A program made the translations under genes and the position numbers. A stretch of DNA of 64,000 bases from an uncultured Bacteroidia bacterium. GTDB lineage: Bacteria; Bacteroidota; Bacteroidia; Bacteroidales; Prolixibacteraceae. Below are positions 1,034-20,109 of the stretch, piece after piece. The notes under the pieces were generated by a model. That model ran no database searches. It saw nothing but the letters and a program-made list of their open reading frames with translations, and had not been told where the DNA came from. Where the stretch lies: positions 1 through 64,000 of the forward strand of contig CAIVCR010000012.1 in the NCBI GenBank assembly GCA_903904515.1, written 5' to 3'. The first letter of the stretch is position 1. Each line of letters begins with the position of its first letter.

Positions 1034-4000
1034 TTAATGCTTCGATACTGTGCCTAATTGTTCATAAACTAATTGCAGGATATTAGTTCTAACATTCATA
1101 TCGAAAAGCTTAAAATTATCCCGGGTTGGATTTACACGATTTGATAAGAAGACATAGATCAAACCATTTGTCGGGTCGGCCCAAAAGAAAGTCCCGGTAA
1201 AGCCTGAATGGCCGAAACTTTGTGGTGAAACAGCTGGACATGGATATGATTTCTCGCGGTCAAATTTTTGATTGTCGATTAACGGTTTATCAAAACCTAA
1301 GGCTCTCCTGTTTTTATACTGGGGGTACTGGACCCGGGTAAACTCCTCTAATGTTGATCTTTTCAAATATTCTTTCCCTCCGTAAGTTCCATACTGGACA
1401 TACATCTGAACAATTTTTGCCAGGTCATTTGCTGAAGCAAACAATCCGGCATTTCCGGAGATTCCACCAAGAACTGCGGCGGACTCATCATGAACTGAGT
1501 TATGAATTAATCGCTTACGGTAATAATTATCATATTCGGTAGGAACAACCTGATCATCTGAAAATTTCAGTGAAGGATTATAAGTGACTGTTGTGGCTCC
1601 CAAAGGCCGATAAAAATTCTGATCCAGGAAATCGGTGTATTTCATTTTGGATAACCGTTCGATAACCCCGGGGGCCATGACGAATGAAAGATCACTGTAC
1701 ACATATTTCCCCCGATTTTCGAGGGGAGACTTCCTTATTGCTTTGTAGACGTGTTTTTTAAATTTTGAATCGAGATACATGCCAGGAGCGACTTCCAGAT
1801 TATACTTTTCATTTTGATCCACATTAAACCACTTATGGGAAATCTTTTCCCCGTCGATCGTCTCCTTCCAAAAAAGTACATCGGGGATTAAACCGGCCTG
1901 ATGGGTTAATAATTCCCTGGCAGTGAGATCACTTTTATTGGATGGATGCCAAAAATGTTTCCGCCAGTCGGGCCAGTAGGTTGAATAGGGTTCGTCGAGG
2001 ACATATTTGCCCTCCTCATAAAGTTTCATGATAGCAGGAAGTGCTCCGGAAACTTTGGTAACAGAGGCCAGATCATACAGGTCATCCAACCTCGAAGGTA
2101 CCCGCTCCTCGTAGGTATGAAAACCGTAAGCCTTTTGAAAGATGATCTTACCATCCTTGGCGATTAATACGTTACATCCGGGAAACGCCTTTTTAGTCAG
2201 GGCATTATTCACAATTGAATCAATCGATTTATTGAAAACAACCGAATTTAGTCCCACCTCTTCGGGAAGGGTATATTTTAACCGGATCGGAGGATTAGTG
2301 GACAATCCGGATCCTGCAGGAAAACGACTTCCGATTGATACAGACAGTTTCCCACCGGCACTTATACCGCCAAACAACAGCTGGGCAGATAGTTCCTGAG
2401 CCATTGTTGAATTCTGCCAGGCCACAACGACTCCGGAGGGGTGTCCGAAATCCTTAATCTCATTGATTGCATACGAATTGGCAAAGAAAACGATTATCGA
2501 ACTTTTAATACCGGAAATCCTGGAAAGCAAAGTCCCGAGATTTCCAGATACCCCATACGGGTGAAATGAATTGCCGGAGACAGGGGTGTTAACCGTAAAT
2601 GTACGGCGGTTCAGGCATTCATAAAGTGAATGAACACCAGTAATAACTAAATTATAATCCCCAATTTTTTTAACCAGTTCATCTGCTTCTCTCTCTGAGA
2701 AATCATCAGGAAGATTATAGTAATCAACCTTGGTGTAATTACCGAGCATCTTCTGAAAAGGTGTTGCCTCTGCTGATCCGATTGAGAGAGCAGCAATTCG
2801 CAAGGTGTCTAACCGCAGAAACGGAATAAGCTGGTTCTTGTTCTCCAGTAAAGTCAGGGACGATTCGGTAACCTGACGTTGTGCAAATTCGGCAGTTTTA
2901 GAATTCAGATTTCTCAATATCCCTTCAACTTTTAATGGTTGACGATGACTTAATCCTGTCAGAAATTTAGCTGCCAGGACTCGCTTGCATTTTACATTTA
3001 TCTCTTCCAGGGTGAGCTCTTTGTTCTGAATTGCCTCCTTGATTGCTTTGAGCGTAATCTCAGCATCAACGGGAAATTCTATAACATCATTTCCAGCAAT
3101 CAATGCCTGAACATCGCATTTCCCTGGCTCACAGAATCCGGTGACTCCACCCATGTTCATCGCATCAGTAATAATCAACCCTTTAAAATTCCATTCCTTT
3201 CTGATGACCCCTTCCACTGCATTTTTGGATAAACTTGAAGGATATTCATTTTTGGGATCAAAGGCAGGAACGCGCAGATGAGCAGTCATAATTCCGCCAA
3301 TGCCTTCTAATGCCAATCGTTTAAACGGATAAAGCTCCAAACTGTCAAGTCGTTGCCGTGATACTGACAATAGTGGCAAGGTGAGATGTGAATCATATTT
3401 TGTATCGCCATGACCAGGGTAGTGTTTGGCCACAGCCAGTATCCCATTCTCCTGCAAACCTTTCATATAGGCGATACTTTTCAAGGTCACCTGGTAACGC
3501 GATTCACCAAAAGAGCGGAGCCCGATTATTGGATTGGAGGGTTCGGAGTTAATGTCGGCCACAGGTCCTAAACTCACCTGAACACCCAGAAGCTTCAGCT
3601 GATCTGCCATTTTAGCAGCACAATTCCGGATCAGCTGATCGTCTGAAGCTGCTCCCATAGTCTGATTATAGGGAAAAGACGCCACATCCTCGAGCCGCAT
3701 TCCAGGGCCAAACTCAGCATCCATAGCTACGATAAGCGGAGTTCCGGAGAGCGACTGGTAATAATTGATCAATTCAACCTGCTTTACCGCTTTCCCGCCA
3801 AAAAAGATCAAACCACCAAAATGATTTTTACGAATTAAATCGGCCACGTGAATTTGCTTTTCCAAATCTTCATTGGCATTCACATTAATCCAGATCAGCT
3901 GAGCGATCCGTTCGTCGGGTGAAAGAGAATTGAATATTGAATCTACCCATGGGTGATTCATATATTTAGTTAAATTTAACTGAGAATGGGCCTTTGAAGG

Positions 4001-4051
4001 AAGGATTAAGGCAAGGATTAGTCCCAGGTAAAATACTTTATATTTAAACAT
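1034..4051 (-). CDS. GH3 (NagZ-type) beta-N-acetylglucosaminidase fused to beta-lactamase-fold serine hydrolase
   Basis: 1005 aa. A signal peptide (residues 1-23, ending AHSQ) sends it to the periplasm. Residues about 30-370 are a GH3 domain. KHYPGHGDT (209-217) followed by DSH (220-222) matches the His/Asp acid-base loop of NagZ-type hexosaminidases, and ITDAMNM carries the likely nucleophile D296. Residues about 600-1000 are a class C beta-lactamase / penicillin-binding-like domain with SVTK (S663-K666), YSD (785-787) and a late HSG. Expected work: removing GlcNAc from (anhydro)MurNAc in murein fragments, with the second domain acting on a peptide, amide or ester bond. The fusion is known in Bacteroidota. 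It is the last gene of the minus-strand salvage set, 113 bp after the NagX-like gene, so it may have its own promoter. The substrate of the lactamase-like half is not shown by sequence. Confidence 0.88.
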   Translation of the reverse strand: MFKYKVFYLGLILALILPSKAHSQLNLTKYMNHPWVDSIFNSLSPDERIAQLIWINVNANEDLEKQIHVADLIRKNHFGGLIFFGGKAVKQVELINYYQSLSGTPLIVAMDAEFGPGMRLEDVASFPYNQTMGAASDDQLIRNCAAKMADQLKLLGVQVSLGPVADINSEPSNPIIGLRSFGESRYQVTLKSIAYMKGLQENGILAVAKHYPGHGDTKYDSHLTLPLLSVSRQRLDSLELYPFKRLALEGIGGIMTAHLRVPAFDPKNEYPSSLSKNAVEGVIRKEWNFKGLIITDAMNMGGVTGFCEPGKCDVQALIAGNDVIEFPVDAEITLKAIKEAIQNKELTLEEINVKCKRVLAAKFLTGLSHRQPLKVEGILRNLNSKTAEFAQRQVTESSLTLLENKNQLIPFLRLDTLRIAALSIGSAEATPFQKMLGNYTKVDYYNLPDDFSEREADELVKKIGDYNLVITGVHSLYECLNRRTFTVNTPVSGNSFHPYGVSGNLGTLLSRISGIKSSIIVFFANSYAINEIKDFGHPSGVVVAWQNSTMAQELSAQLLFGGISAGGKLSVSIGSRFPAGSGLSTNPPIRLKYTLPEEVGLNSVVFNKSIDSIVNNALTKKAFPGCNVLIAKDGKIIFQKAYGFHTYEERVPSRLDDLYDLASVTKVSGALPAIMKLYEEGKYVLDEPYSTYWPDWRKHFWHPSNKSDLTARELLTHQAGLIPDVLFWKETIDGEKISHKWFNVDQNEKYNLEVAPGMYLDSKFKKHVYKAIRKSPLENRGKYVYSDLSFVMAPGVIERLSKMKYTDFLDQNFYRPLGATTVTYNPSLKFSDDQVVPTEYDNYYRKRLIHNSVHDESAAVLGGISGNAGLFASANDLAKIVQMYVQYGTYGGKEYLKRSTLEEFTRVQYPQYKNRRALGFDKPLIDNQKFDREKSYPCPAVSPQSFGHSGFTGTFFWADPTNGLIYVFLSNRVNPTRDNFKLFDMNVRTNILQLVYEQLGTVSKH

Positions 4052-4164
4052 TGTTGAAAAATTAAATGTGAATGATTTATCAGACTAGTCCGGTAACAAT
4101 TATCACAGGATAGCTGACTATTCCAGGGTTGAAATTTTCATTAATTTCTTAACATTTTATAACC

Positions 4165-5277
4165 CTAAACTTTTATGAAGATTTTCTTTTTATAAAGGAC
4201 CCAACCAACAAGCCAGAAAAAAACGATATGTCCAAGGGCAAAAAGTAACGAAGCTATTTTCTGATCGGTACAAAGTGGTGAAAAAATGTGTTGAAAGATC
4301 CAGGTATACCCATTCGCAACAGAACCATCTGGCTGTGGAATATGAACAAGCCGGAGAATTGATTTCACGTAGAGCCCCGAAAAGGCAAAGATCGCCAAAG
4401 GATTCATCCCAAATACGACAAAAAATGAAGTCCACCTGGACCACCCTTTTATGTCGATCATCCAAATCAGCAAAGCCAGGGAAAGCAAAGCCCAACCAGC
4501 GGCATAAATCACATAGGAACTGGTCCATAGTGGCTTATTAATAGGGAATTGAAGTCCCCAGAGATAACCCACAAGAACACCTGCGATTCCAAAAATTACT
4601 AATTTCTGCGGCACTTTTACCGCCTCCGTTTGTTTGATTAATCCGCCGGTCAGATATCCGATAATAACGGTTACAATTGCAGGCACAGTACTCAAAAGCC
4701 CTTCCGGTTCAAAAGGAATTCCAAAACCTTTGTACATATGACTCTCACCAAGTATTGCCTTGTCTAATGGAATTACAGCATTTCCTGACAGAGAATAGGG
4801 ATCTCCCACGCCAAACCATGACAATATCCCCCAGTATAGCAACAGTATGGAAACACCCGCCAATGGTAGCCATTTCCTTGGGACAGCCAACGCGATCAAA
4901 GCAGCAAAACCGTAAGCAATTGCAATCCGCTGAAGAACCCCCATAATCCGGAGTTTGGAGAAATCGGTTAAAGCCTGCGGGAATGCATTAAGGAATAAAC
5001 CAATTGCGAAAATAAGCAGTGTCCGTTTACCTATCTTTAGCAACGATTCCTTATTCAGTGAATTATTGTATTTTGAAAAGGAGAAAAACATCGATACTCC
5101 GACAACGAACAGAAAAAAGGGATATACCAGGTCTGTTGGGGTACATCCATGCCATTTCGAGTGTTCAAGGGGTGAAAAGATATATTCCCAACTACCGGGA
5201 TTATTCACCGTAATCATAAAGGCAATCGTGATGCCGCGCAGAACATCAAGTGCCAGGTACCGTTGAGATGAATTCAT
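4165..5277 (-). CDS. nagX: NagX/DUF5009 multi-pass membrane protein (HGSNAT-like acyltransferase or amino-sugar transporter)
   Basis: 370 aa, strongly hydrophobic with about ten membrane segments. The N terminus LALDVLRGITIAFMITVN and the nearby HGCTPTDLVYPFFLF stretch are typical of the DUF5009 / COG4299 family, which is related to heparan-alpha-glucosaminide N-acetyltransferase. Members occur in GlcNAc and MurNAc utilisation loci and are usually named NagX; whether they transport or acylate the amino sugar is not settled. Its place among murein-degrading genes, 11 bp downstream of the DigH-like gene, favours handling of GlcNAc or MurNAc at the inner membrane. PTS-independent MurNAc uptake is known in Tannerella (MurT-MurK-MurQ), which is the closest precedent for this gene set. 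The symbol is assigned by family resemblance. Confidence 0.75.
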   Translation of the reverse strand: MNSSQRYLALDVLRGITIAFMITVNNPGSWEYIFSPLEHSKWHGCTPTDLVYPFFLFVVGVSMFFSFSKYNNSLNKESLLKIGKRTLLIFAIGLFLNAFPQALTDFSKLRIMGVLQRIAIAYGFAALIALAVPRKWLPLAGVSILLLYWGILSWFGVGDPYSLSGNAVIPLDKAILGESHMYKGFGIPFEPEGLLSTVPAIVTVIIGYLTGGLIKQTEAVKVPQKLVIFGIAGVLVGYLWGLQFPINKPLWTSSYVIYAAGWALLSLALLIWMIDIKGWSRWTSFFVVFGMNPLAIFAFSGLYVKSILRLVHIPQPDGSVANGYTWIFQHIFSPLCTDQKIASLLFALGHIVFFWLVGWVLYKKKIFIKV

Positions 5278-5288
5278 GCTTTTCAGTA

Positions 5289-6794
5289 TTAGTTATGTTG
5301 GTAAAATTTCACAGGTTTACTTTCCATATTTGTTTGACTTATTGCTGTAACGACATAACGATAGCGGTCGGGATCAGTTAATTCACTGAGCATATAGGTT
5401 ACGGAATTATCAGAAGTAGTCAGAATAATGCGTGCAGGCTTTTTGATGTTTATTCGTTGCCACCTGTTGAACTGGTAAATAACGAATGATTTTGTGTTTT
5501 CCCCTTTCTCCCATGAAAACTCAAGCTTTCCATCAGAAACCTTTATTTGCGCATTCGCCGGAACCTGAGGAATTACAGGGCTAATCCGTTCGTTTACAGG
5601 CGCGAGGGCCGGATAGCGATATAAACGGTCCTGTAACTTCTGTTGAAGATTAAGTGGATTTTTTCGGAGGAACTTCGCACTGTAAAATATACTGCCAGAG
5701 ATTGTGGAGCGTTTCCGGTTAAGTTTTACCTGGTTTACAATCTCATCCGCACTCTGCCACGATTTCTCCTTCGCTTCAGGATCCAGTTTGTACAATCCAT
5801 GACCTATAAAAAGCTGGGTTCCATAGGTATTATGACTCCACCAATCGGCAATAATCTTATAGTCAGCAATCTCTTTCCCAATTTCCCAGTAAACCTGTGG
5901 TGTAACATAATCGATCCAGTGATTCTGTTCCCATTTCACGATATCGGCAAAAAGATCATCGTAATTGGTTTGTCCTGCTTTGGTTTTCGAGCCTGCAGGA
6001 TCTTTGTCTGCATTTCGCCACACACCAAAAGGAGAAATTCCAAACTCAACCCACGGCTTTATAGCTTTAATACTGTCATGCAGCTGTTGAATAATGAGAT
6101 CTACATTATGACGACGCCAATCATCCTTTTCGCCTGCCTTAAATCCCCGGGGATAATCCCTGAAGGACTGCTCATCGGGAAACTCAACACCTGAGATCCT
6201 GTAGGGATAAAAATAATCATCCATATGAATGGCATCGATATCGTACCGACGGACGATATCACTTACTATTTTGGTGACATAATTGCGGGTTTGGGGGAGT
6301 CCCGGATCAAATATTTTGGTCTTTCCATAGGTAATAAACCATTCCGGATGGGTATTTGAGATATGACCGGTCGATGTCCGGTTCACGTTGACATCAGATA
6401 CGGCACGGTATGGATTGATCCATACGTGGAGATCGACACCTCTTTTGTGACATTCGGTTGCAGCAAACTCAAGGGGATCGTAAAATGGTTCCGGCCTCTT
6501 TCCCTGTTTTCCTGTTAGCCATTGTGACCATGGTTCAAAATCGGAAGCATAAAAAGCATCGGAAGCAGGCCTGATTTGAAAGACAACAGTGTTCATATTA
6601 TAGACCTTGCACAAATCAAGTAACTCGATAAATTCCTGCTGTTGTTGTTCAGTTGTCAGATTTGAAGAGGAAGGCCAGTCAATATTGGCGATGGTCGCAA
6701 TCCATACAGCTCTCATCTCTCTTTTGGGATATTTCGCAGCCATCAAATTCACTGACAATATCCATAAAATGCTCAATACGAATGCTCTTTTCAT
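5289..6794 (-). CDS. GHL10-family glycan hydrolase (YngK/DigH-like)
   Basis: 501 aa with a signal peptide (1-20, ending LMAAK). Residues about 24-340 form the GH10-like TIM barrel of the UPF0748/YngK/DigH family: REMRAVWIATIANIDWPS at the start, HVWINPYRAV, AIHMDDYFYPY with likely catalytic or ligand Asp residues, FGISPFGVWRN, and YVTPQVYWEIG. Residues about 410-495 look like a fibronectin-type or Ig-like tail. E. coli DigH cleaves peptidoglycan glycans stripped of peptides, and this fits a cluster that also holds an amidase and a SpoIID protein. It sits 51 bp downstream of the AmpG-like gene and 11 bp upstream of nagX, so it is probably cotranscribed with both. Denuded-glycan specificity is inferred from family and context. 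Confidence 0.82.
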   Translation of the reverse strand: MKRAFVLSILWILSVNLMAAKYPKREMRAVWIATIANIDWPSSSNLTTEQQQQEFIELLDLCKVYNMNTVVFQIRPASDAFYASDFEPWSQWLTGKQGKRPEPFYDPLEFAATECHKRGVDLHVWINPYRAVSDVNVNRTSTGHISNTHPEWFITYGKTKIFDPGLPQTRNYVTKIVSDIVRRYDIDAIHMDDYFYPYRISGVEFPDEQSFRDYPRGFKAGEKDDWRRHNVDLIIQQLHDSIKAIKPWVEFGISPFGVWRNADKDPAGSKTKAGQTNYDDLFADIVKWEQNHWIDYVTPQVYWEIGKEIADYKIIADWWSHNTYGTQLFIGHGLYKLDPEAKEKSWQSADEIVNQVKLNRKRSTISGSIFYSAKFLRKNPLNLQQKLQDRLYRYPALAPVNERISPVIPQVPANAQIKVSDGKLEFSWEKGENTKSFVIYQFNRWQRINIKKPARIILTTSDNSVTYMLSELTDPDRYRYVVTAISQTNMESKPVKFYQHN

Positions 6795-6845
6795 ATACTA
6801 AAATTCATTTATTTTAACTTTGCAACAATAAATTATTCCTATAAC

Positions 6846-8729
6846 TTACCCTTCGGTAACGCCCTTTTTTATACCATATTCTTTATCAATTTTAAGAAAA
6901 GGGATGATTGCCAATGTTGGAATAGCACAAATCATCACCCAAATAAAGAAGTGGTTATACCCAAGAAGTTCCTGCAACCACCCTGCTGCCATCCCGGGAA
7001 GCATCATCCCCAAAGCCATAAATCCCGTACAAATGGCATAATGAGCTGTTTTATGCTGGCCATCAGCAAAGTAAATCATAAAGAGCATATAGGCAGTAAA
7101 TCCGAATCCATAACCGAAGAGTTCAATAGCTACCGCGATATTGATGAGCAGAAAACTCTCAGGGGTGAACCATGACAAATATAAGTAGGATAAATGGGGA
7201 AATGTGATACACAATGCCATAGGCCAGATCCAATATTTCAAACCTTTCCGTGAAGCAGCTATACCTCCGACTATTCCGCCAATGGTAAGTGAAATAACTC
7301 CAACCGTTCCATATACCAATCCAACCTGTCCGGTTGTAAGACCGAGTCCACCCAATTCTCTGGGATCGAGAAGAAACGGAGGTGACATTTTTACCAGCAT
7401 CGCTTCACCCAAACGGTATAGCAACAAAAACGTTATTGCTAAACCTGCATTTTTCTTTTGGAAGAATGACGAAAAAGTTTTTCCAAATTCGCTGAAAATA
7501 TCCGCTGTTGAATGTGTTTCAGTTGAATGGTCGGAAACCGGTCGTGGTAAGGCAAAACGGTGATAGGTGAAGATCACTGTAAAAAAGGCCGCCAGAATAA
7601 AGAAGGTTATACTCCAGGCTAACCTCAAATTTCCTGAAATACCTTTAAATTCAGAGCTTACCTGGTCCCTGAGTTTGTAATCCAGCTGTACAACGACTAA
7701 AGCAGGCTTATCCCAATTTTCATGGGTAAAAACAAACCGTTCCCCGGAAATAATGGAAATACTCTTATCACCTTCCACAAAACGTGAGTTTAGCACGACA
7801 TTATCGCCCGGACCTGGTTGTTTGGTCAGACAAACTGCAACTAAACCCGCATTCCCAACTTTTCCGTTACCTCCAATCGTTTCGCCTCCTTTCTGTCCAA
7901 AATTACTTTTTATAAAATGGCCCAAAGGATGAGATACATGTTTCGTCCACCACGATTCCGATTTTTCTACACCACCAGGGGAATAACTTTCCTCATTGAC
8001 GATAAAACCGTTTATGCGGTTTTGCTCAAGTGCGAAAGTTTTAATTTTCTTTAAAGAGTCAACACTTATGTTATTGACATTGATAACCAGATTGGAGGGA
8101 AATGCCATAAAGGTCATTTCAGAAGTTATGGGAACATTAAAATTTCGAGGATTCAACACGACTTCCGTCCGGCTGGTAATAGATGACTGAGCCGTAAATT
8201 GCAGAGGCTGCAATCCTGTAAAACTCTCCAGCGACCCGGCAATAATAATCAACAATCCTTGTCCGGTAATCATTGCAAGGCGGTAGAATGTGCTTCGGAT
8301 GCCTACAAAGAAGGATTGTTGACCGCTATCAAGGGCAAGCATGTAAAAACCGTCGGCTGCAATATCATGAGTTGCAGAGCTGAATGCGATTAACCAAAGC
8401 ACAGCCAGGGTAGTCTGAAAGAAAAACGGCATTGGAATCAAAAATGCAACACCAGCAAGTCCGGCACCAATGAGCAATTGCATAGTAACAATCCACCACC
8501 GCTTGGTTTTCAGCATATCAACAAACGGACTCCAGAACGGCTTGATCACCCATGGCAAATATAACCAGCTCGTATATAAGGTAATATCTGCATTGGAGAT
8601 TCCAAGTCGTTTGTACATAATTACCACCACCGTCATCGCCACCACATAAGGAAGACCCTGTGCAAAATATAAGGTTGGTATCCATGCCCATGGATTTCGA
8701 ATCTTGCCTGGCCGGCTATTATCACTCAT
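6846..8729 (-). CDS. AmpG-like MFS muropeptide permease with about 200-residue periplasmic insert
   Basis: 627 aa inner-membrane permease of the AmpG/PAT branch of the MFS. AmpG imports GlcNAc-anhydroMurNAc and its peptides by proton symport. The first five membrane segments (about 17-165) and the ATHDIAADG motif in TM4-5 are AmpG-like; TM6 starts near 370 and six more follow. Between TM5 and TM6 lies a soluble stretch of about 200 residues (about 167-369), predicted outside the membrane. It contains little hydrophobic sequence, is rich in Gly and Ser, and has no family I recognise. Ordinary AmpG proteins lack it and are 430-500 aa. Neighbours are GH9-NodB upstream (38 bp) and the DigH-like gene downstream (51 bp). 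The import role is inferred from family and context; the insert could be a binding or docking domain. Confidence 0.8.
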   Translation of the reverse strand: MSDNSRPGKIRNPWAWIPTLYFAQGLPYVVAMTVVVIMYKRLGISNADITLYTSWLYLPWVIKPFWSPFVDMLKTKRWWIVTMQLLIGAGLAGVAFLIPMPFFFQTTLAVLWLIAFSSATHDIAADGFYMLALDSGQQSFFVGIRSTFYRLAMITGQGLLIIIAGSLESFTGLQPLQFTAQSSITSRTEVVLNPRNFNVPITSEMTFMAFPSNLVINVNNISVDSLKKIKTFALEQNRINGFIVNEESYSPGGVEKSESWWTKHVSHPLGHFIKSNFGQKGGETIGGNGKVGNAGLVAVCLTKQPGPGDNVVLNSRFVEGDKSISIISGERFVFTHENWDKPALVVVQLDYKLRDQVSSEFKGISGNLRLAWSITFFILAAFFTVIFTYHRFALPRPVSDHSTETHSTADIFSEFGKTFSSFFQKKNAGLAITFLLLYRLGEAMLVKMSPPFLLDPRELGGLGLTTGQVGLVYGTVGVISLTIGGIVGGIAASRKGLKYWIWPMALCITFPHLSYLYLSWFTPESFLLINIAVAIELFGYGFGFTAYMLFMIYFADGQHKTAHYAICTGFMALGMMLPGMAAGWLQELLGYNHFFIWVMICAIPTLAIIPFLKIDKEYGIKKGVTEG

Positions 8730-8767
8730 TTTTAGTCTGTTAGTTTGCTACTACCCAAATCTGCTGC

Positions 8768-11284: not shown

Positions 11285-11306
11285 TTATTTATATTGATTC
11301 TAATAA

Positions 11307-11349
11307 AAATATTGTATAGACGGGTTTGAAACCCGTCTATACAATATTT
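11307..11349 (-). terminator. 43-nt perfect palindrome, probable intrinsic terminator within the salvage set
   Basis: The two 21-nt arms (11307-11327 and 11329-11349) are exact reverse complements around one central base; the core reads GACGGGTTTGAAACCCGTC. On the minus strand it starts 5 bp after the SpoIID stop codon and is followed by ATTTTTATTA. That fits a terminator or attenuator separating the four-gene amidase operon from GH9-NodB and later genes. The length and perfection are unusual for a terminator, so it could instead be a dispersed extragenic palindrome. Confidence 0.7.
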
Positions 11350-11354
11350 ACATA

Positions 11355-12689
11355 CTAATACATCTTCTCTATCTTAGCTCCTGGGAAATAATGAAATAAA
11401 ATCTCAGCGTATGAATCTCCTTTTTCGCCCATTACAGCAGCTCCTATCTGACACAATCCAACGCCATGGCCCCATCCGGCGCCATGAAGAATAAATTTAA
11501 CATTGCCAGCCTCTTCATGCTTTTCTATTATAAACGCAGAACTATACAAATGTGTTTTAGATAATGTCTTTCTGATCTCCAACTCTTTTCCAATCGTCAT
11601 TGTCCGGAGAGTTCCGACAATTTTTAATTGGATAAGTCGTCCTGAAGGACCCCGTTTAAGGGGTATAAGCTCAACAATTTCGCCAAAATCTATCCCTGAT
11701 CTTAATTTAACCAACTCACCCAGCTCCTCCTGTGAATAAACCACTTTCCATCGGAAGAAATCGTTCGTCTCCTGGTCATAATCATTAAGTACTTGTTTAA
11801 GTACTTTTTTATCCGTTGTATTGCAGTTAGCACCGGGATTTCCCAAAATCCATCTTCCGGCATTCTGTTCTATTGTAAGATCGGGTATGAATTTCTGTGG
11901 ATGTTCACTTTTATCGGCAATACATTGAAGATAAGGATGATTGACAGGCTCCCAGACATTTTCGAATAGTTCGGTTACTCCTCCGCAACATTTCGAAAAA
12001 CGGGCATCACAAATTGTCCCATTAAAAACCAGAACTTCACCGCTGGATTGAAAAACGGCATCTTCAATTAAGGGTGAAGCAGCACGTGTAACTCCCTGAT
12101 ATCTTTGGCAATGGTCGTCGGCACAAACATCAAACAGGAGATGGTCCTCGCGGTCATACCATCTGACTAATTCATCATCTGTATAAAAGGTGGTCTGATA
12201 ATTTTTATTCCCTGTTTGCAGGAATTTATTTTTCTGAACCTGAGCCAGCAGCCAACTGCGGGAAATGACTGCATGTGCTTTTAAAAACTCAGGTGAAGAT
12301 GTTGCGCTCATTTCGCTGGAAATAACGCTCAGCAAATAATCTTCAATACTTAAAATATTAACGGCATGTATCTTGTCTCCATCTGAAACAAAACTAAGCT
12401 CCCCTTTAAACTCCTGATTTTCTTTTCTTTGCCAGTGAAAATCAAGACCAATAGTAACATTTGGAAGGATAAATGTCGCAGTTTGGGGATCAACAGGAAT
12501 AAGTTTAAGACTATCCCCGCATATCCAGCTCTGGGTACCCGCTTCGAAGCGAATAGCTGATTCTGTTTTTATAGCCTTACATAACCCGGTTACAATAACT
12601 GACTGTTCCCCAAAAAAATAATCACCTGTAAGTGTGAAGAGAATCTCTCTCTCCGCCATAATTCCAACTTTAATTAAGGGAATATCCAT
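11355..12689 (-). CDS. SpoIID/LytB-domain protein without signal peptide
   Basis: 444 aa. SpoIID proteins are lytic transglycosylases acting on peptide-free peptidoglycan strands. Typical motifs are visible: SIEDYLLSVISSEMSATSSP (about residues 117-136), the AHAVISRSW helix, a Cys-rich middle (ICDARFSKCCGG) and the C-terminal GAGWGHGVGLCQIGA followed by HYFPGAKIEK. The protein starts directly with the SpoIID fold. There is no signal peptide or membrane anchor, and an in-frame TGA lies three codons before the ATG, so a missed leader is excluded. A cytosolic SpoIID would act on imported glycans, which is unusual. It ends just before the palindrome and follows the DUF4922 gene by 36 bp. Fold assignment is strong; the cytosolic role is inference. 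Confidence 0.85.
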   Translation of the reverse strand: MDIPLIKVGIMAEREILFTLTGDYFFGEQSVIVTGLCKAIKTESAIRFEAGTQSWICGDSLKLIPVDPQTATFILPNVTIGLDFHWQRKENQEFKGELSFVSDGDKIHAVNILSIEDYLLSVISSEMSATSSPEFLKAHAVISRSWLLAQVQKNKFLQTGNKNYQTTFYTDDELVRWYDREDHLLFDVCADDHCQRYQGVTRAASPLIEDAVFQSSGEVLVFNGTICDARFSKCCGGVTELFENVWEPVNHPYLQCIADKSEHPQKFIPDLTIEQNAGRWILGNPGANCNTTDKKVLKQVLNDYDQETNDFFRWKVVYSQEELGELVKLRSGIDFGEIVELIPLKRGPSGRLIQLKIVGTLRTMTIGKELEIRKTLSKTHLYSSAFIIEKHEEAGNVKFILHGAGWGHGVGLCQIGAAVMGEKGDSYAEILFHYFPGAKIEKMY

Positions 12690-13705: not shown

Positions 13706-15175
13706 TTAATTCCCAGCACTAACCATTTGCTGACGCGCCCATAATTCAAGGGATCTTATTTTATCCTTGTAAAAATTATGACTGTTCATCACCGATATAT
13801 CGAGTGATGAATCTGAATTTTCGTCCCAGCGACGACAAAGATACAACGGATTATAAATCCTACCAATCTGAAAATGGCGACAAATAGCTAAACCAATCGC
13901 ATAATCTTCACCATAACTCACATTTGGCACCTGGATTTCTCGTATAACGGGAGTGTAAAATGCGCGAGGAGCCCCTAATCCATTAATTCTCAATGCATTA
14001 TTTCTTCCATTTTCCGGTGTCCATTCCTTATGATCAATTATTCCAGGAGGTATTAATTCGAGTTTAAAATTAACCATCTGATAAGATCCGACAACCATGG
14101 CACAATTTTGTTTGTAAAATTCATCTACAATATTCTGTATTACCCCGTTATCGATATATAAATCGTCGCTGTCAAGCTGAATAGCAAATTTTCCGCATTG
14201 AGCGTGGTTGATTGCTTCGTTCCAGCAGCCACCGATCCCAAGGTCTTTTCGTTTGGGGATCAAATGAATAATACGTTTATCAGATTTAACAAATGCTTTG
14301 ATCAGTTCTGTTGTTCCATCTGTCGAATAGTTATCAACAACAATAAGATTAAAGTCAAATTCAGTCTTTTGGCTCAATACAGAGGTAATTGCATCACTGA
14401 TTGTCTTAACCCGGTTGCGGACCGGGATAACAACCGATGCTTCCAAATCGAAATCATCGTCGGAAAACATGATCTCTCTGAATAACGGAGGAAGCCAGGC
14501 ACCAATAACCTTAAGATGTGAAGTGCAGGCTCGCTCCATCTCCCGCTGTTTAAAAATATTCCGAGGATCGACATAATCAAAAAGCTTCTCCCCTGAGGCC
14601 CGGGTATCCAGTTCAAGTTCGGTGTAGAGCAGCTCCGGCAGATGCAGAAGCTTGTAATTTTGCGAAACCTTTAACCTAAGGTCATAGAGTGCAGCCATTT
14701 CAAATTGCTCGTTCATTCTTCCAACCGCAGAAACCAAGGCATCGGTACGAAAAAGCATAAGAGAACCAAAATCAAAATCATCCCGTAAACTTCCATCCTG
14801 ATATTCAATAACAGGATGAGGTTTGACCACACCATTTTTTTGCTCAAAATAATCGGAATAGACGATCCCGGCACCACTACTTTGAGATACCTGCATCATT
14901 CTAAACAAGGAATTCTGGGCAAGATCTAGCGGTAAGGTCTTGGTATAAAACAACGTGAATTGAGTTTTAATTTTTGGCGAAACATCCTGCAGAAAAACAG
15001 TTGACAAAATATTGCTGCCAGCCATTTTGAGGATATCAAAACCATCGACCATAAACTGCACCTCACCGACAAGAATAATCTGTGCAATCACACCAGTTGA
15101 TCTTAATGTTTTAAGAGTTTTCCCAAGCTCCGTTTGATGATCAACAGGCAAAATACAGGTGATTAAATCAAGCAT
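13706..15175 (-). CDS. Two-part GT-A glycosyltransferase (GT2), N-terminal half degenerate
   Basis: 489 aa, no signal peptide or membrane segments. The second half (about 247-480) is a clear GT2 domain: ASVVIPVRNRVKTISDAITS, VVDNYSTDGTTELI, the DxD-like LDSDD that binds metal and nucleotide, and YGEDYAIGL near the end, which could hold the catalytic Asp. The first half (about 1-200) has the same secondary-structure order and resembles GT-A but lacks a clear DxD, so it is probably inactive or regulatory. The enzyme should move a sugar from an NDP donor to an unknown acceptor in the cytosol. It lies 19 bp after the amidase gene and 47 bp before DUF4922, which might supply or consume its donor. 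Specificity is unknown. Confidence 0.8.
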   Translation of the reverse strand: MLDLITCILPVDHQTELGKTLKTLRSTGVIAQIILVGEVQFMVDGFDILKMAGSNILSTVFLQDVSPKIKTQFTLFYTKTLPLDLAQNSLFRMMQVSQSSGAGIVYSDYFEQKNGVVKPHPVIEYQDGSLRDDFDFGSLMLFRTDALVSAVGRMNEQFEMAALYDLRLKVSQNYKLLHLPELLYTELELDTRASGEKLFDYVDPRNIFKQREMERACTSHLKVIGAWLPPLFREIMFSDDDFDLEASVVIPVRNRVKTISDAITSVLSQKTEFDFNLIVVDNYSTDGTTELIKAFVKSDKRIIHLIPKRKDLGIGGCWNEAINHAQCGKFAIQLDSDDLYIDNGVIQNIVDEFYKQNCAMVVGSYQMVNFKLELIPPGIIDHKEWTPENGRNNALRINGLGAPRAFYTPVIREIQVPNVSYGEDYAIGLAICRHFQIGRIYNPLYLCRRWDENSDSSLDISVMNSHNFYKDKIRSLELWARQQMVSAGN

Positions 15176-15194
15176 GACAGATAGTTATATCAGA

Positions 15195-18100
15195 TTATTT
15201 GGATTCAAAAAAATTGATAATTTGTTGCATGAGTGTAACTTGTTGCAAGCTGTCAGATATTGTTTCAAAAGGTAATCCCATTGCCACAACACGGTATTTC
15301 CCTTTAAAAAGAATCCCCGCACTCACATTATTCTCGCTGTACCTGAAAGCACACAAGGCACTCTGACCTGCCGGTTCGATACCATCCGGAGCTTCCACCG
15401 CATAGATTGCAGGATTATAGGTAACATTGAAATTCCACTTACCGGTCAGCCATTTTCGTGCATAATCGGTTGCATAAAAATCACCCCCTTTTGAGGCATG
15501 TCCGGTACGCCAGGTAAAATGGAGCGTATTCCGAACAAATTCAGCAACTAAGGAGTCTTTATTCTCTCCAAAATCTGAGCCTATGTATGCTCCTGACAGA
15601 AAAAGATTGCCTCCTTTTTTCGTAATTTCAGTAACCTTAGCCATCAATTGGGGAGTATAAATTTTAAAATCGGTTGATTTATGATCTGATAAAGCTGGAG
15701 TAGACCGCTCCTCTCCAAAGATGATATCTGTAGCAAAAAAAGGCGAGCTATCAAATCCTGCCTTACAAAACACCTCATCGCTTGCTGAAACGAAAGAATA
15801 GCCAGCTGCCATAATCGCTTTGCCGTGGATATACGGAAAGTCGAAACTATTGCCTGGAATTACCTTCCCTTCCATATTGCCATAACTCGCTCCCCATCCC
15901 GGACTATCGTCATCAAGCCATTTTGAATTGCGGTCAAAATCGTACTGATCTCCAACAAAACTGATATCCTGATGATCAGCAACGCCACGATCTTTCCACC
16001 ATGCCACACCCGACATTCCCGCATTATCAAATATAGAAGGAGCACAAATCCGGTTGAAACCATTAACAACAAGAATATTACCTTTGCTTTTACTTTTAAA
16101 TCCTACAGAGAGGGTTTCACCCGGGAAACTCTCGCCTCCCGAATTAATTGCTGTAACTTTATAACTATAGATCGTATCAAACTGATCAAGTTTTAAAACA
16201 AGAACTGTATCTTCAACAAGGACACCATTATCAAAACCTTCGTCATTAATCCGCTTGTAAACCTTAAATTTATCAGCTTTTGCGGTAACTTCAGTTGGAT
16301 CAGTGACTGCGTGCCAACTTAACCTTACAGAATTTGAGTCAGTTTTTACAATTGCAAAGTGGTCAACAGGAAGAGGTTGAACGATAAATGGCCTGTTTTC
16401 CTGATAAGATTGAAACTTAAGAATTCCTTTATAAATAGCTCGGCTCGCTGCAAACCGGAAGCGCGGATCCAACCCGAATCTCATATCGGCTATATTCTGA
16501 TGCGAGAGTAACTCCAACAGCATTGCAGGGACATTAGGTCTCCAGGCCTCAGAATACGCTTTGTCCCATAATCCACGCCTTGTCCATTGGGGATTAAAAA
16601 GATACCGGATATCATCCACAACCTGTGTTTGAATGATGTCGCTCAAATCCCTGCTTCCCAAACGTGATTTACCATCAGGGAATAAGCCCTTATCTGGTTT
16701 GGTATTGTAGGTACTGTATATGCCGAGAGTTCCGATTATCGAATCGTTGGGGGTTATTCCGGCGTCGGTATGAAAAGCAAGAGCCAGATCTACAGGGATT
16801 TTTAAACCGCGATTTTTCCTTTCCCTTTCCGGACCATTGGGACTACCCATCAGATAGTTTACCCATTCGCCACGAGACTGATAATCATCGTTATAATCAT
16901 TTTTATTATTATTCAGATTGTAGGTAAGGGTGTCCGGAAAACCTGCACTTTGAAGATAATATCTTGATCCTTCGAGGTAACGTGGCTTCCCACTTAACTT
17001 ATAATTAAATGTGGTTTGGAGAGAAGCATCATTAGCAGGCCGTCGCGCAACATTCCCCTTCCCTCCCCCAAATTTAACGGCATCAACAGAAATAGCACCC
17101 TTCTGAGTACCTTCATAACTCACCGTTACCATACCGGCCTGAGAATTTTTCCCCTTTGCAAAGTCAAAGGTCCCAAGATAGATCCAGGTTCCCCCTCCAA
17201 TCTTTTGATTAACTAAAAATTGAGCTTTTCCACCTGTATGATAAACCGAATAAATCACATTGGACAAGGAAGTACTGTCGCTTTGATAGGAAATGGAGAC
17301 CGAATATTGTCCGGCTACATTAAAGGAGGGTATATACTGAATATCCTGATGTTTAGTGTAATCATTAAATTTCAGTGAACTCCCAAGAAGAAACGGATTT
17401 TCGCCGGAAAACAAAGTATCCTTTAAAAGATATCCCGGCTGCGACCTAGCTGAAACAAGTTCGGAGGGGATATGCAGTTCAGATCCGGCGGTTGAACGAT
17501 CATTATCAACGATTACCTCTTCATTTTGCCAATCCCTTTCACGGGGAATAAAAACTGTCGCTCCGCTATTCTCAAGCATCGGGGTCAGATAGGGCAGTAT
17601 AAAACTCATGGGTGACATATCTTCAACGGTTCCAAAAAGGCGGGCACGCTGCCATTTCCAACGATCCTGCTTTAATTCATAATACCAACCGTGACTATCC
17701 CATATAGCTATATTATTATTGAACAGCCCTGAAACCGGTTTATCCTTTCCAACCCGGGTAACAACCGGAATCCTGTCAGAGTGAGAATCAGACAATCGGT
17801 TTTTATCAACGGGAAAATCGATTCGCATTTTATTAGGAACCAATTCATTAACTAAATGATGATCGGAATACAAAGCCAGTTTGTATTTTCTAAACCTGCG
17901 GCCAAGAGATTTACTTACTGTTTTTTCAAGGTTACGAACGTCAATTTCCCTGATCGGAATATAGGATAGGGGTGCCGAAAAATAGATTTGAATCAGTTTT
18001 TTTTCCGTTAGCAGGGTGAGAGAATCAAATCCGATCTTGCCCAGATGCTCCCAGCCTGGCAATACACTCTTTAAATCCTTTAGTCGGTTTTCAGCTTTTA

Positions 18101-18203
18101 AACTCAATCCGGATCGTTTTAAAGGTTTTGAAGAACCCAAAAACGGCGTAAAAAAAAGAACAACCAGAAGAAAAACGACAGATGACCTAACAGATCTACT
18201 CAT
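15195..18203 (-). CDS. Secreted amidase_3-like zinc amidase with golvesin-type insertion and FN3 domain
   Basis: 1002 aa from ATG at 18203; a TTG directly upstream is less likely. A signal peptide (about 1-25) is followed by an N-terminal alpha/beta region. The pattern matches N-acetylmuramoyl-L-alanine amidases: likely zinc ligands H171 (WDSHGWYY), E194 (TVEDM) and H478 (LAFHTDAG), with catalytic E564 (MLLELLSHQN). The site is split by an insertion at about 270-400 that looks like a golvesin/xanthan-lyase C-terminal beta-sandwich, a presumed carbohydrate binder. An FN3 domain (about 613-700) and a C-terminal alpha/beta domain follow. It would strip stem peptides from murein in the periplasm or outside the cell, giving bare glycans for the DigH-like enzyme. 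It is the first gene of its operon, divergent from murK. Confidence 0.78.
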   Translation of the reverse strand: MSRSVRSSVVFLLVVLFFTPFLGSSKPLKRSGLSLKAENRLKDLKSVLPGWEHLGKIGFDSLTLLTEKKLIQIYFSAPLSYIPIREIDVRNLEKTVSKSLGRRFRKYKLALYSDHHLVNELVPNKMRIDFPVDKNRLSDSHSDRIPVVTRVGKDKPVSGLFNNNIAIWDSHGWYYELKQDRWKWQRARLFGTVEDMSPMSFILPYLTPMLENSGATVFIPRERDWQNEEVIVDNDRSTAGSELHIPSELVSARSQPGYLLKDTLFSGENPFLLGSSLKFNDYTKHQDIQYIPSFNVAGQYSVSISYQSDSTSLSNVIYSVYHTGGKAQFLVNQKIGGGTWIYLGTFDFAKGKNSQAGMVTVSYEGTQKGAISVDAVKFGGGKGNVARRPANDASLQTTFNYKLSGKPRYLEGSRYYLQSAGFPDTLTYNLNNNKNDYNDDYQSRGEWVNYLMGSPNGPERERKNRGLKIPVDLALAFHTDAGITPNDSIIGTLGIYSTYNTKPDKGLFPDGKSRLGSRDLSDIIQTQVVDDIRYLFNPQWTRRGLWDKAYSEAWRPNVPAMLLELLSHQNIADMRFGLDPRFRFAASRAIYKGILKFQSYQENRPFIVQPLPVDHFAIVKTDSNSVRLSWHAVTDPTEVTAKADKFKVYKRINDEGFDNGVLVEDTVLVLKLDQFDTIYSYKVTAINSGGESFPGETLSVGFKSKSKGNILVVNGFNRICAPSIFDNAGMSGVAWWKDRGVADHQDISFVGDQYDFDRNSKWLDDDSPGWGASYGNMEGKVIPGNSFDFPYIHGKAIMAAGYSFVSASDEVFCKAGFDSSPFFATDIIFGEERSTPALSDHKSTDFKIYTPQLMAKVTEITKKGGNLFLSGAYIGSDFGENKDSLVAEFVRNTLHFTWRTGHASKGGDFYATDYARKWLTGKWNFNVTYNPAIYAVEAPDGIEPAGQSALCAFRYSENNVSAGILFKGKYRVVAMGLPFETISDSLQQVTLMQQIINFFESK

Positions 18204-18226
18204 CAATAAGTTATTATAAGGGCGGC

Positions 18227-18234
18227 CAAAATTA
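18227..18234 (-). promoter_or_regulatory. -7 box TAATTTTG for the amidase operon
   Basis: Read on the minus strand, the sequence matches the Bacteroidetes TAnnTTTG consensus 24 bp before the ATG at 18203. No clear -33 TTTG is seen. It lies back to back with the plus-strand box at 18256, so both halves of the salvage region appear to be controlled from one 218-bp gap. Confidence 0.5.
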
Positions 18235-18255
18235 GAATTAATTTTATAATAATTG

Positions 18256-18263
18256 TACCTTTG
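18256..18263 (+). promoter_or_regulatory. -7 box TACCTTTG for murK-murQ
   Basis: Matches TAnnTTTG. Initiation a few bases downstream would leave an AT-rich leader of about 150 nt before murK. The leader contains several TTTC/GAAA elements but no hairpin I can support. Confidence 0.5.
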
Positions 18264-18421
18264 CCGAAGATGTTTACCAAAAAATACCAGGCGGGTCAGT
18301 ACAGCATATTTACTAACAATATATTCTTGATTTACCTTGTTTCTAAAATGCTTCTAATTACATTTCAAATAGAGTAAAATTAGAAATATTTCACTTCAAC
18401 TCAAAATAATTTCAATAAATA

Positions 18422-19267
18422 ATGATCTTAATTGCAGATAGTGGCAGTACCAAAGTGGAATGGAATATCCTCTCAAAACAAGGAATAATCGAATCGGCGG
18501 TCACATCAGGAATTAATCCATTTTATCAGGATGCAGCGAACATTGAGCATATTTTACGTGAGGAATTTTCTTCACTCCAAAGGGAGTTTGACGCCATCTA
18601 TTTTTATGGCGCGGGTTGCATTAATGAAGAGAAACAGGATATCGTAACATCGGCTCTGCTACGGGTTTTTAGCACCAGGGAAATTTATGTCGGCAGTGAT
18701 TTAATAGCTGCCGCAAGATCGTTATGTCAGGATAAGCCAGGTATTGCCTGCATTTTAGGTACGGGTTCAAATTCATGTTATTATGATGGGGAAGTAATTA
18801 CAGGTCATGTATCGCCTCTTGGATTCATACTGGGGGATGAAGGGAGCGGCGCTGTTCTGGGGAAAAAGCTGATCAGCGATATTTTAAAAAAACAACTTCC
18901 GGCTCCAATAATTCATGAATTCTTTGAAAATTATCACACTACATCAACAGAGATTCTGGAAAACGTCTATAAACGTCCCTTTCCAAGCCGGTATTTAGCC
19001 GGATTTGCCGGATTTCTCTCCAAAAACATCCTGAATCGAGAAATTGAACAAATTGTACTTACCAGCTTTCGGGATTTTGTCACACGTAACTTACTTCAAT
19101 ATCCTGAATCAAAATATTCTCCAATCCATTTTACCGGAAGCATAGCCTATTATTTCGAGACTCAGCTCAGAAAGGTTCTCGAAGAGCAGAACCTGAAAAT
19201 TGGACAAATAAAACAGGCTCCTATGCAGGGACTTGTCTTGTACCATCAAAGAAATATTACCCAATAA
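18422..19267 (+). CDS. murK: MurK-like N-acetylmuramate/N-acetylglucosamine kinase (BadF/BadG family)
   Basis: 281 aa cytosolic sugar kinase of the ASKHA fold. DSGSTKVEW (about 6-14) is the phosphate-1 loop, YGAGC lies near 60, CILGTGSNS (about 115-123) is the phosphate-2 loop and LGDEGSGAVLG is also present. The length and motifs fit the BadF/BadG/GlcNAc-kinase family, including Tannerella MurK, which phosphorylates MurNAc and GlcNAc at O6. murQ starts 14 bp downstream, so the product MurNAc-6-P would feed directly into MurQ. The pair is divergent from the amidase operon. The exact sugar preference (MurNAc versus GlcNAc) is inferred from the murQ linkage. Confidence 0.85.
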   Translation: MILIADSGSTKVEWNILSKQGIIESAVTSGINPFYQDAANIEHILREEFSSLQREFDAIYFYGAGCINEEKQDIVTSALLRVFSTREIYVGSDLIAAARSLCQDKPGIACILGTGSNSCYYDGEVITGHVSPLGFILGDEGSGAVLGKKLISDILKKQLPAPIIHEFFENYHTTSTEILENVYKRPFPSRYLAGFAGFLSKNILNREIEQIVLTSFRDFVTRNLLQYPESKYSPIHFTGSIAYYFETQLRKVLEEQNLKIGQIKQAPMQGLVLYHQRNITQ

Positions 19268-19281
19268 ATAATTAGTTTCCA

Positions 19282-20109
19282 ATGAAGTCAAAATCGGGCA
19301 CAAATATCCCCATTACTGAATCATCTTCAAACTTCGACAATCTCGATACCATGTCGGTTGAAGAGTTGCTTACCCATATTAACGAGGAGGATGCAAAGGT
19401 CCATCTGGCAGTCAGAAATGCTCTCCCCCAAATAAAGAACCTTGTTGAACAAATTGAAGTCAGAATGAAAAAAGGGGGACGGGTTTTCTATCTTGGAGCC
19501 GGCACAAGCGGACGGCTAGGAGTATTAGACGCTTCGGAGATTCCACCCACTTTTGGAGTACCTGAGAGTATGGTAATCGGGTTGATCGCAGGAGGAGATA
19601 CCGCATTGCGCAAATCGGTGGAAGCCGCCGAGGATGATCAGGATAAGGCATGGGCTTCGCTTCAAGGTTTTAACATCAATCAAAACGACACAGTTATTGG
19701 AATAGCGGCCTCCGGAACTACACCCTATGTGATCGGAGGGATCAGGCATGCCAGGGACAACGGAATCCTTACCGGGTGTATAACCTGTAATCCGGATAGT
19801 GAAATTGCAGAAGTCACTGAATATCCCATTGAAGCCATTACAGGACCGGAATTTGTGACCGGGAGCACACGATTAAAGGCCGGTACTGCACAAAAGATGA
19901 TTCTCAATATGATCACTACGACCATCATGATTAAATTGGGACGTGTAAAAGGGAACAAAATGGTCAATATGCAACTCACCAATAAAAAACTGATTGAGCG
20001 GGGTACCAGGATGATTGTGGATGAACTCCATATCCCCAGTGACGATGCACGCCGATTATTATTGATTCATGGATCAGTACAAAAAGTGATCGGGAATTAT
20101 CAAAAATAA
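19282..20109 (+). CDS. murQ: N-acetylmuramic acid 6-phosphate etherase
   Basis: 275 aa, full length for MurQ. It cleaves the D-lactyl ether of MurNAc-6-P to GlcNAc-6-P and D-lactate in the cytosol. The SIS-fold signatures are intact: YLGAGTSGRLGVLDASEIPP, with E86 matching the catalytic Glu of E. coli MurQ (DASExPPTFG), then IAASGTTPYV, FVTGSTRLKAGTAQKMILNM, and the C-terminal VNMQLTNKKLIERG stretch. It is translated just after murK (14-bp gap) with no obvious terminator before ovoA, 131 bp downstream, which has its own promoter box. This is the defining gene of the MurNAc pathway and dates the neighbouring murein enzymes to catabolism or recycling instead of synthesis. Confidence 0.97.
   Translation: MKSKSGTNIPITESSSNFDNLDTMSVEELLTHINEEDAKVHLAVRNALPQIKNLVEQIEVRMKKGGRVFYLGAGTSGRLGVLDASEIPPTFGVPESMVIGLIAGGDTALRKSVEAAEDDQDKAWASLQGFNINQNDTVIGIAASGTTPYVIGGIRHARDNGILTGCITCNPDSEIAEVTEYPIEAITGPEFVTGSTRLKAGTAQKMILNMITTTIMIKLGRVKGNKMVNMQLTNKKLIERGTRMIVDELHIPSDDARRLLLIHGSVQKVIGNYQK

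Follow-up and report, generated by a model that had tools for sequence, protein, structure and literature searches.

The window analysed here comprises the first 64,000 nucleotides of contig CAIVCR010000012.1 from an uncultured bacterium of the Prolixibacteraceae (Bacteroidia), and at positions 1034–20109 it carries a cluster of eleven predicted genes for salvage of murein and N-acetylmuramic acid (MurNAc). Most probably, this cluster is the counterpart of the Bacteroidota murein-salvage operon of the Tannerella forsythia type, with three predicted cytosolic proteins as its inner module: a tandem glycosyltransferase of family GT2, a protein of the DUF4922 family and a SpoIID-family protein. 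As a whole the cluster is not new in kind; it extends a known operon to an uncultured lineage, in which a DigH-type glycosidase stands where other genomes have NamZ. The new element is the trio of predicted cytosolic proteins, which would correspond to the least understood genes of the operon, named gtf, gtf and lytB in T. forsythia.

Gene content and the known operon

The gene list and all coordinates given by the first-pass annotation were confirmed by a list of open reading frames (ORFs) and by family profile searches. Nine genes form a minus-strand run from 18206 to 1034 with intergenic gaps of 11–113 bp, transcribed in the order golvesin/amidase-like protein, GT2, DUF4922, SpoIID, GH9-NodB, AmpG-like permease, DigH, NagX-like protein and a fusion of a NagZ-type GH3 with a beta-lactamase fold. 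A divergent plus-strand pair, murK-murQ, occupies 18422–20109. The source genome (3.57 Mb, 130 contigs) is 83% complete, and the cluster stops only 1 kb short of the contig end. The genes and their best supporting matches are as follows.

1034–4051, minus strand: exported NagZ-type GH3 beta-N-acetylglucosaminidase (KHYPGHGDT motif) fused to a serine beta-lactamase-fold hydrolase; Pfam GH3, E 1.8e-67, and Beta-lactamase, E 2.8e-43
4165–5277, minus strand: NagX/MurT-family membrane protein; NCBIfam NagX, 154 bits, below the cut-off of 480
5289–6794, minus strand: exported DigH/Cwp19-type glycosidase for peptidoglycan glycan; GHL10, E 5.1e-74
6846–8729, minus strand: AmpG-like permease of the major facilitator superfamily with an insertion of about 200 residues between its halves; TIGR00901, 179 bits in two stretches
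8768–11284, minus strand: exported fusion of GH9 and a PdaA-like NodB deacetylase; Pfam GH9, E 3.7e-69, and Polysacc_deac_1, E 1.4e-9
11355–12689, minus strand: SpoIID-family protein of 444 residues without a recognisable signal peptide; TIGR02669
12726–13658, minus strand: DUF4922, a HIT protein of the GalT/Ap4A-phosphorylase type with HLHFQ; PF16269, 208 bits
13706–15175, minus strand: tandem GT-A glycosyltransferase (GT2); PF00535, E 1.1e-23
15195–18206, minus strand: exported protein combining a golvesin/xanthan-lyase domain, an Amidase_3-like stretch and a weak fn3 match; Golvesin_C, E 1.2e-18
18422–19267, plus strand: MurK-type MurNAc kinase; family models weak, T. forsythia kinase structure 8oqw, 257.6 bits
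19282–20109, plus strand: MurQ, MurNAc-6-phosphate etherase; TIGR00274, 314 bits

Three proteins scored above the curated cut-offs of their families, namely SpoIID (TIGR02669 for SpoIID/LytB, 163.3 against 83.3 bits, with the catalytic Glu kept), MurQ (TIGR00274, 314.4 against 302 bits) and DigH (GHL10 model PF02638, 249.6 against 27.9 bits). The GH3 fusion has the YbbD/NagZ structures 3bmx and 4gyj among its best PDB matches (194–196 bits), and we propose that it is NagZ-AmiE-like, its beta-lactamase-fold half presumably having the AmiE role. For the NodB domain, the best deacetylase model was PdaA (52 bits, below the cut-off of 298), and the PDB search gave PdaA 1ny1 (E 8.7e-9). The kinase keeps an S-P-L stretch as in 8oqw and not the R-A-G of 8oqk, which places it in the MurNAc-specific type; the numbering of 8oqw fits the MurK residues given previously (PMC10465942). 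As a GHL10 glycosidase, the DigH-type protein resembles both Clostridioides difficile Cwp19 (structure 5oq2, 340 bits) and E. coli DigH, which is described at the division septum (PMC12288456) whereas the window protein belongs to a salvage operon.

Within 19 kb, a single locus holds a murT-family gene, murK, murQ, ampG and lytB/SpoIID, the combination that characterizes the operon of the T. forsythia type. In T. forsythia, genes Tanf_08345–08385 were reported to form a single transcriptional unit (PMC7670621) in the order xanthan lyase, gtf, gtf, lytB, ampG, ybbC, then murT, murK and murQ (PMC5388701). The two operons share the xanthan-lyase-type protein, two gtf genes, lytB (SpoIID by name), ampG, murT, murK and murQ. 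No phosphotransferase system (PTS) is named in the T. forsythia excerpts, and the eleven genes of the window include no PTS gene. The first-pass description of a conserved murein/MurNAc salvage cluster without a PTS stands, whereas its presentation as a new "super-cluster" does not, the same order being that of the published operon. A PDB search matched the amidase-like protein of the window to the xanthan lyase domain structure 6f2p, and this domain probably explains the T. forsythia gene name; judged by position, DUF4922 would be the second gtf. In contrast to the T. forsythia operon as excerpted, the window has DigH after ampG in place of ybbC (NamZ), GH9-NodB between SpoIID and AmpG, an additional NagZ fusion and a divergent murK-murQ pair.

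A plant or microbial polysaccharide utilization locus might also be considered, since GH9 is a cellulase family and the best PDB matches of this domain are endoglucanases. With MurQ, MurK, NagZ, DigH and an AmpG-like permease together, and no SusC/SusD-type match in the family searches of the eleven genes, this origin is highly improbable. The same endoglucanase matches leave the assignment of GH9 as an exo-glucosaminidase unsupported.

The first-pass annotation had noted that AnmK, LdcA and Mpl are absent, and had suggested a possible departure from the E. coli sequence of steps. AnmK and LdcA are indeed absent from the window. Both are encoded on other contigs of the same genome (AnmK on C49, 208 bits; an S66 peptidase of the LdcA family on C60), so their absence from the cluster was discarded as a clue and the argument for a different order of steps falls. 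Mpl gave no match over the cut-off in this 83% complete genome (best 112.7 against 388.7 bits). One NamZ was found on contig C108. The presence of AnmK distinguishes the host genome from T. forsythia, for which AnmK is reported lacking in the excerpts. In sum, the observation behind the first-pass annotation is confirmed and its interpretation partly supported.

Conservation of the gene set

Gene order around DUF4922 was compared in 80 loci from named genomes, the best-scoring of 584 matches and hence biased towards relatives of the window; genes beyond the 10-kb flanks were missed, and the named-genome, phylum and same-genus locus sets share some contigs. Long flanks on both sides were available for 39 of these loci. 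Among them, GT2 was found in 36, AmpG in 30, MurK in 29, SpoIID in 27 and MurQ in 26, followed by the amidase-like gene (24), NamZ (21), NagX (18), NodB (9), GH9 (8) and DigH (5). In this biased sample many genes are co-conserved around murQ, as the first-pass annotation would have it, and the gene set is common in Bacteroidota. GH9-NodB and DigH do not belong to this general set and are lineage-specific additions, present as variants in some lineages including that of the window.

An example is the Bacteroides fragilis locus L074, which has the amidase-like gene, GT2, DUF4922, SpoIID, AmpG, NagX, MurK and MurQ in the same order. Unlike the window, it lacks DigH and GH9-NodB and contains two NamZ genes, a Na+ symporter, a phosphoesterase and an FAD-linked oxidase. 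The last of these (L074:14827–17697) has iron-sulphur domains and is encoded in Bacteroides clusters between the genes for NamZ and NagX; it was seen in 13 of the 39 long loci and could serve to oxidise D-lactate set free by MurQ.

Two forms of AmpG were observed: a plain form of about 430–450 residues, as in B. fragilis L074, and a form of about 560–640 residues with an insertion between the halves, as in the window and in Dysgonomonas (L045). The alignment of AmpG relatives is interrupted at this insert. A constant additional domain of this kind in a muropeptide permease may serve in sensing or in the binding of a partner.

Within the genus of the window, DUF4922 was matched in 15 further genomes, and 14 of their loci were compared. 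Six of the 14 (L127, L128, L130, L132, L133 and L137) have the genes from the amidase-like one through NagX in the same order, with a divergent MurK-MurQ, and three of these (L130, L133 and L137) also carry the NagZ fusion and have all eleven genes; such recurrence among metagenome-assembled genomes of one genus places the cluster beyond chance. Three further loci (L134–L136) are interrupted by contig ends. In L131, the genes from the amidase-like protein to AmpG are kept, and neither DigH nor NagX was seen within 4 kb past AmpG. The remaining four loci (L142–L145) are reduced. Three of them, L142–L144, come from small genomes (2.8–2.9 Mb) with DUF4922-DigH; a divergent MurK-MurQ is visible in L143 and L144, and the NagZ fusion in L142 and L143. 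In L145, MurK-MurQ and the amidase-like gene remain. By whole-genome search of 17 genomes with DUF4922, full-length GT2, SpoIID and AmpG occur together in the same 13 and are all absent from the same four (G120, G121, G123 and G133; completeness 92–97%). These four probably form one clade, so that one or two losses may account for the pattern. L142–L144 retain DUF4922 and DigH without GT2, SpoIID or AmpG, so DUF4922 can serve a purpose even where the genes that normally accompany it are missing.

The NagX-like gene sits at the place of murT in the operon order, and NagX is reported to be distantly related to the T. forsythia transporter TfMurT (PMC9007349, in excerpt); the separation of NagX from MurT in the first-pass annotation was accordingly given up. 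The protein scored 154.2 bits against the cut-off of 480 of the NagX equivalog NF046061 and had no Pfam match at E 0.01. We propose that it handles MurNAc, or glucosamine (GlcN) and muramic acid (MurN), at the inner membrane. It may alternatively be a membrane acetyltransferase that re-acetylates periplasmic GlcN/MurN made by the NodB domain, and would then not be a MurNAc transporter. The motif around the proposed acetyl-carrying His was found in all 28 ORFs of the family scoring above 200 bits, a PdaA-like deacetylase domain is encoded in the same operon, and both fitness data and an argument against a transporter role appear in the excerpts of PMC9007349. Against this stand the many NagX loci with no NodB nearby (NagX in 18 and NodB in 9 of the 39 long-flank loci) and the report of the distant relative TfMurT as a MurNAc transporter (excerpts of PMC7670621 and PMC9007349). 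We regard the acetyltransferase role as a tentative alternative.

Co-occurrence, predicted location and folds of the trio

The distribution of the trio was studied in a phylum sample of 118 genomes (G000–G117) with cut-offs of >500 bits for SpoIID and E < 1e-60 for GT2; a DUF4922 match in G027 (26.6 bits, in a HIT-like frame of 166 residues) was left out of the count. GT2, DUF4922 and SpoIID are all present in the same 18 genomes, and none of them is present in the other 100. They co-occur even when unlinked, as in G070, where SpoIID lies on contig C2 and GT2 with DUF4922 on C17. Other SpoIID matches comprise second copies in three trio genomes (147–176 bits) and matches of at most 63 bits per stretch in 19 trio-less genomes; as whole proteins, those compared scored 189–228 and 67–115 bits, respectively. 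The 18 genomes span five families (f1, f13, f15, f18 and f29), and one sampled genome of f13, G004, lacks all three genes. Since 12 of the 18 belong to f15, the co-occurrence is strong without amounting to 18 independent events. The trio looks obligate across much of the phylum. In keyword searches of the open-licence literature, no description of the trio or of a cytosolic SpoIID was seen, two of the matching papers being judged from their listings.

Adjacency depends on the sample. In the best 80 loci, DUF4922 is directly preceded by GT2 in 61 of 73 testable cases and directly followed by, or fused to, SpoIID in 48 of 78; in the less biased phylum sample, the corresponding counts are 12 of 18 for GT2 and only 3 of 18 for SpoIID immediately downstream. 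In f15, SpoIID stands apart from GT2-DUF4922.

Export was judged from the hydrophobicity of N-termini (Kyte-Doolittle scale, 12-residue window, cut at 1.9), which is not a trained predictor; some contigs are counted twice. All amidase-like (23/23), DigH (16/16), GH9 (20/20) and GH3 (6/6) proteins exceeded the cut, in contrast to 1 of 67 SpoIID, 3 of 88 GT2 and 1 of 118 DUF4922 proteins; the cytosolic controls gave 0 of 53 for MurK and 0 of 42 for MurQ. By this test the window SpoIID has neither a signal peptide nor a membrane anchor, and because its open frame has 446 codons for 444 residues, at most two further residues could lie upstream. As a control from the phylum sample, we used 15 other SpoIID/LytB proteins (from 12 of the 19 trio-less genomes with a match, plus the three second copies). 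Of these, 13 exceed 1.9 and 14 exceed 1.8, the start of the fifteenth looking over-extended, and none has an HxxxxxCxxxHC motif. The motif is present in all 13 trio-type SpoIIDs, one of which exceeds 1.9 and two 1.8 (L155 and L159, whose starts look over-extended). In two loci, DUF4922 and SpoIID are fused in frame (L072, Carboxylicivirga linearis, 758 residues, 10001–12277; L140, genome G143, 787 residues, 7903–10266).

The active site appears intact. The catalytic E126, which aligns with the Glu of solved SpoIIDs, and the zinc ligands H183, C189, H193 and C194 are invariant in all 48 aligned sequences (48 of 53 ORFs). In C. difficile SpoIID, which has the same catalytic Glu and an H-x5-C-x(3-4)-H-C zinc motif, residues E101, H134, C140, H145 and C146 matter to varying degree, and that protein functions during engulfment, outside the cytoplasm, with amidase-treated murein as its substrate (excerpts of PMC6221140); the window protein, by contrast, has no recognisable signal peptide. 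With its catalytic residues kept and no signal-like N-terminus, the SpoIID of the trio looks cytosolic and is expected to be enzymatically active, though in an unusual compartment.

Known lytic transglycosylases of the SpoIID family act outside the cytoplasm. One may therefore imagine that the trio SpoIID, its catalytic residues being kept, leaves the cytoplasm by a route that goes unrecognised and, like these relatives, works on denuded glycan in the periplasm. The 66 of 67 N-termini below the hydrophobicity cut, the two fusions to DUF4922 and the contrast with the 15 control proteins, most of which exceed the cut and none of which has the zinc motif, make such export very unlikely. A cytosolic SpoIID, if true, would point either to a step of murein recycling inside the cell that has gone unrecognised or to an undescribed glycan there.

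Structural models were obtained with AlphaFold2 for the other two proteins. For DUF4922 (pLDDT 92), the best fold match was the yeast phosphorylase of diadenosine tetraphosphate (Ap4A), Apa2 (Foldseek E 4.6e-11, TM-score about 0.55), followed by one DUF4931 structure and then by GalT-type enzymes. Its H-x-H-x-Q motif, likewise present in Apa2/GalT, is invariant in all 63 aligned sequences (63 of 80 ORFs), and we propose H150 as the nucleophile. Identity to the Apa2/GalT enzymes is nevertheless 16–19%, and the score for the Ap4A phosphorylase family PF19327 is below its cut-off (18.6 against 23.1 bits) in spite of the matching fold and motif. The name DUF4922 was met in the open-licence literature, as excerpted, only in work on plant GGP. 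GGP is a nucleotide-sugar phosphorylase family, and Apa2 and GGP act by a phosphorylase mechanism.

The GT2 model (pLDDT 91) looks like two tandem GT-A domains. Its best match, across both domains, was the chondroitin polymerase K4CP (E 6.8e-20); the TM-score of only 0.43 indicates a different domain arrangement. Mean column identity is high (62%; 58 of 72 GT2 ORFs found). In the second domain D335-S-D337-D338 and E423-D424 are invariant (58/58), and in the first domain Asp108 is kept in 51 of 58, so that one or both domains may act.

Two broken-looking copies were also seen: in L120 (G047:C140), a second GT2-DUF4922 pair has one TAG in the GT2 frame and DUF4922 in two pieces, and in G082:C116 GT2 has one internal TAG.

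Proposed salvage route and flanking genes

In the proposed route, the exported amidase-like protein would strip peptides from murein, the exported DigH/Cwp19 glycosidase and the NagZ-type fusion would cut the denuded glycan, and AmpG and the NagX/MurT protein would import the fragments and MurNAc. MurK would then convert MurNAc to MurNAc-6-phosphate and MurQ the latter to N-acetylglucosamine (GlcNAc)-6-phosphate, with AnmK, encoded elsewhere in the genome, feeding anhydro-MurNAc into the same point. For this outer half, the family assignments are observed and the activities are predicted from sequence. SpoIID, DUF4922 and the tandem GT2 would stay in the cytosol as one module, in which SpoIID would split AmpG-imported oligosaccharides of the MurNAc-GlcNAc type to anhydro-MurNAc ends, and GT2 together with the Ap4A-phosphorylase-like DUF4922 would draw on the same pool to form or degrade a glycan derived from nucleotide sugars. 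Here the observations are the predicted location and the co-occurrence, and the reaction is putative; the cytosolic SpoIID step, taken by itself, is rather unlikely. We give an even chance to the broader view that GT2, DUF4922 and a cytosolic zinc-type SpoIID constitute an undescribed intracellular pathway of Bacteroidota. In it, an enzyme of the lytic-transglycosylase type would work together with a two-domain glycosyltransferase and a phosphorylase-type nucleotidyl enzyme on a glycan that contains muramic acid or is related to such a glycan; the pathway would be linked to murein salvage in Bacteroidia and could exist without MurQ.

Several points weigh against a murein-salvage operon with the trio as its inner module. 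The Amidase_3, AmpG and NagX matches are all under curated cut-offs. For the amidase-like protein, Amidase_3 (PF01520) reached 18.7 bits against 27 (E 0.0018, a partial match at 461–596), and fn3 (E 0.0021) is also below its cut-off; of the "zinc amidase" in the first-pass annotation there remains an Amidase_3-like stretch, weaker than stated, and its function as a peptidoglycan amidase is proposed. TIGR00901 scored 178.7 bits against 350 with the match split by the insertion, and an AmpG-like function is claimed from the position in the locus and from the T. forsythia AmpG. The likeness to T. forsythia itself was set by published gene names and order, not by its sequences. A step from SpoIID to AnmK fits the window genome and not T. 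forsythia, where lytB is present and AnmK is not predicted (excerpts of PMC5388701 and PMC7670621). Lytic transglycosylases are known to cut MurNAc-GlcNAc bonds and not the bond inside the classical AmpG substrate, GlcNAc-anhydro-MurNAc. Four genomes (G009, G019, G031 and G116) have the trio but only weak MurQ matches, and the loci examined in f15 (Ignavibacteria-type) have no AmpG, MurK or MurQ beside the trio genes. In the Tannerellaceae- and Paludibacter-type loci L050, L053, L086 and L096, AmpG follows DUF4922 with no SpoIID between them within the locus. Finally, the four genus members described above have DUF4922 without GT2 or SpoIID.

The presence of the trio in four genomes without MurQ over the cut-off shows that it is not an appendage of MurQ, and together with the f15 loci it makes a role in murein catabolism alone unlikely. 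DUF4922 was also rejected as a marker of MurQ-type recycling: MurQ is over its cut-off in 78 of the 118 genomes, against 18 for the trio, and in 14 of these 18.

These distributions lead to another reading, in which the trio forms a cytosolic pathway of its own for a glycan or glycoconjugate and has only the operon, and perhaps the sugar pool, in common with murein salvage. GT2 would build the glycan from nucleotide sugars, DUF4922 would make or recover the nucleotide sugar by phosphorolysis and SpoIID would trim or remodel the product. Besides the four genomes without MurQ, this would suit the placing of GT2-DUF4922 away from most murein genes in f15, the glycosyltransferase gene that follows SpoIID in 7 of 13 loci (12 from f15 and one from f18; a BLAST cluster, one member being of the GT4 type by Pfam), the two-domain polymerase as best fold match of GT2 and the high conservation of the latter. 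It fits less well with the trio repeatedly preceding AmpG in Bacteroidales, with AmpG lying within the examined locus in all five trio genomes outside f15 and other than the window's own, and with the joint absence of AmpG, GT2 and SpoIID from the four genus members named above. Even in f15, a DigH-like gene (289 bits) adjoins GT2 in one genome (G074, L164), and SpoIID retains residues known to matter for murein cleavage. A separate pathway is possible, somewhat short of an even chance, and is about as likely for the trio as the SpoIID-to-AnmK step.

In the f15 loci (L036 and L102–L118), a group of sensor-kinase, STAS-like and response-regulator genes often stands beside GT2-DUF4922 (12–14 of 22 loci, with at least one contig counted twice); one member is a PAS-histidine kinase, and the STAS and response-regulator members were judged by eye. 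Being convergent to the pair in L036, with the loci related to each other, these genes were set aside as functional partners.

Two further genes of the window flank the cluster, both on the plus strand. At 219–995, near the contig end, a multi-CxxCH protein matches cytochrome c7/c3 models. Directly after murQ, at 20241–22376, lies a fusion of DinB-like, FGE-sulfatase-like and methyltransferase domains, a layout that we take to be like that of the ovothiol synthase OvoA.

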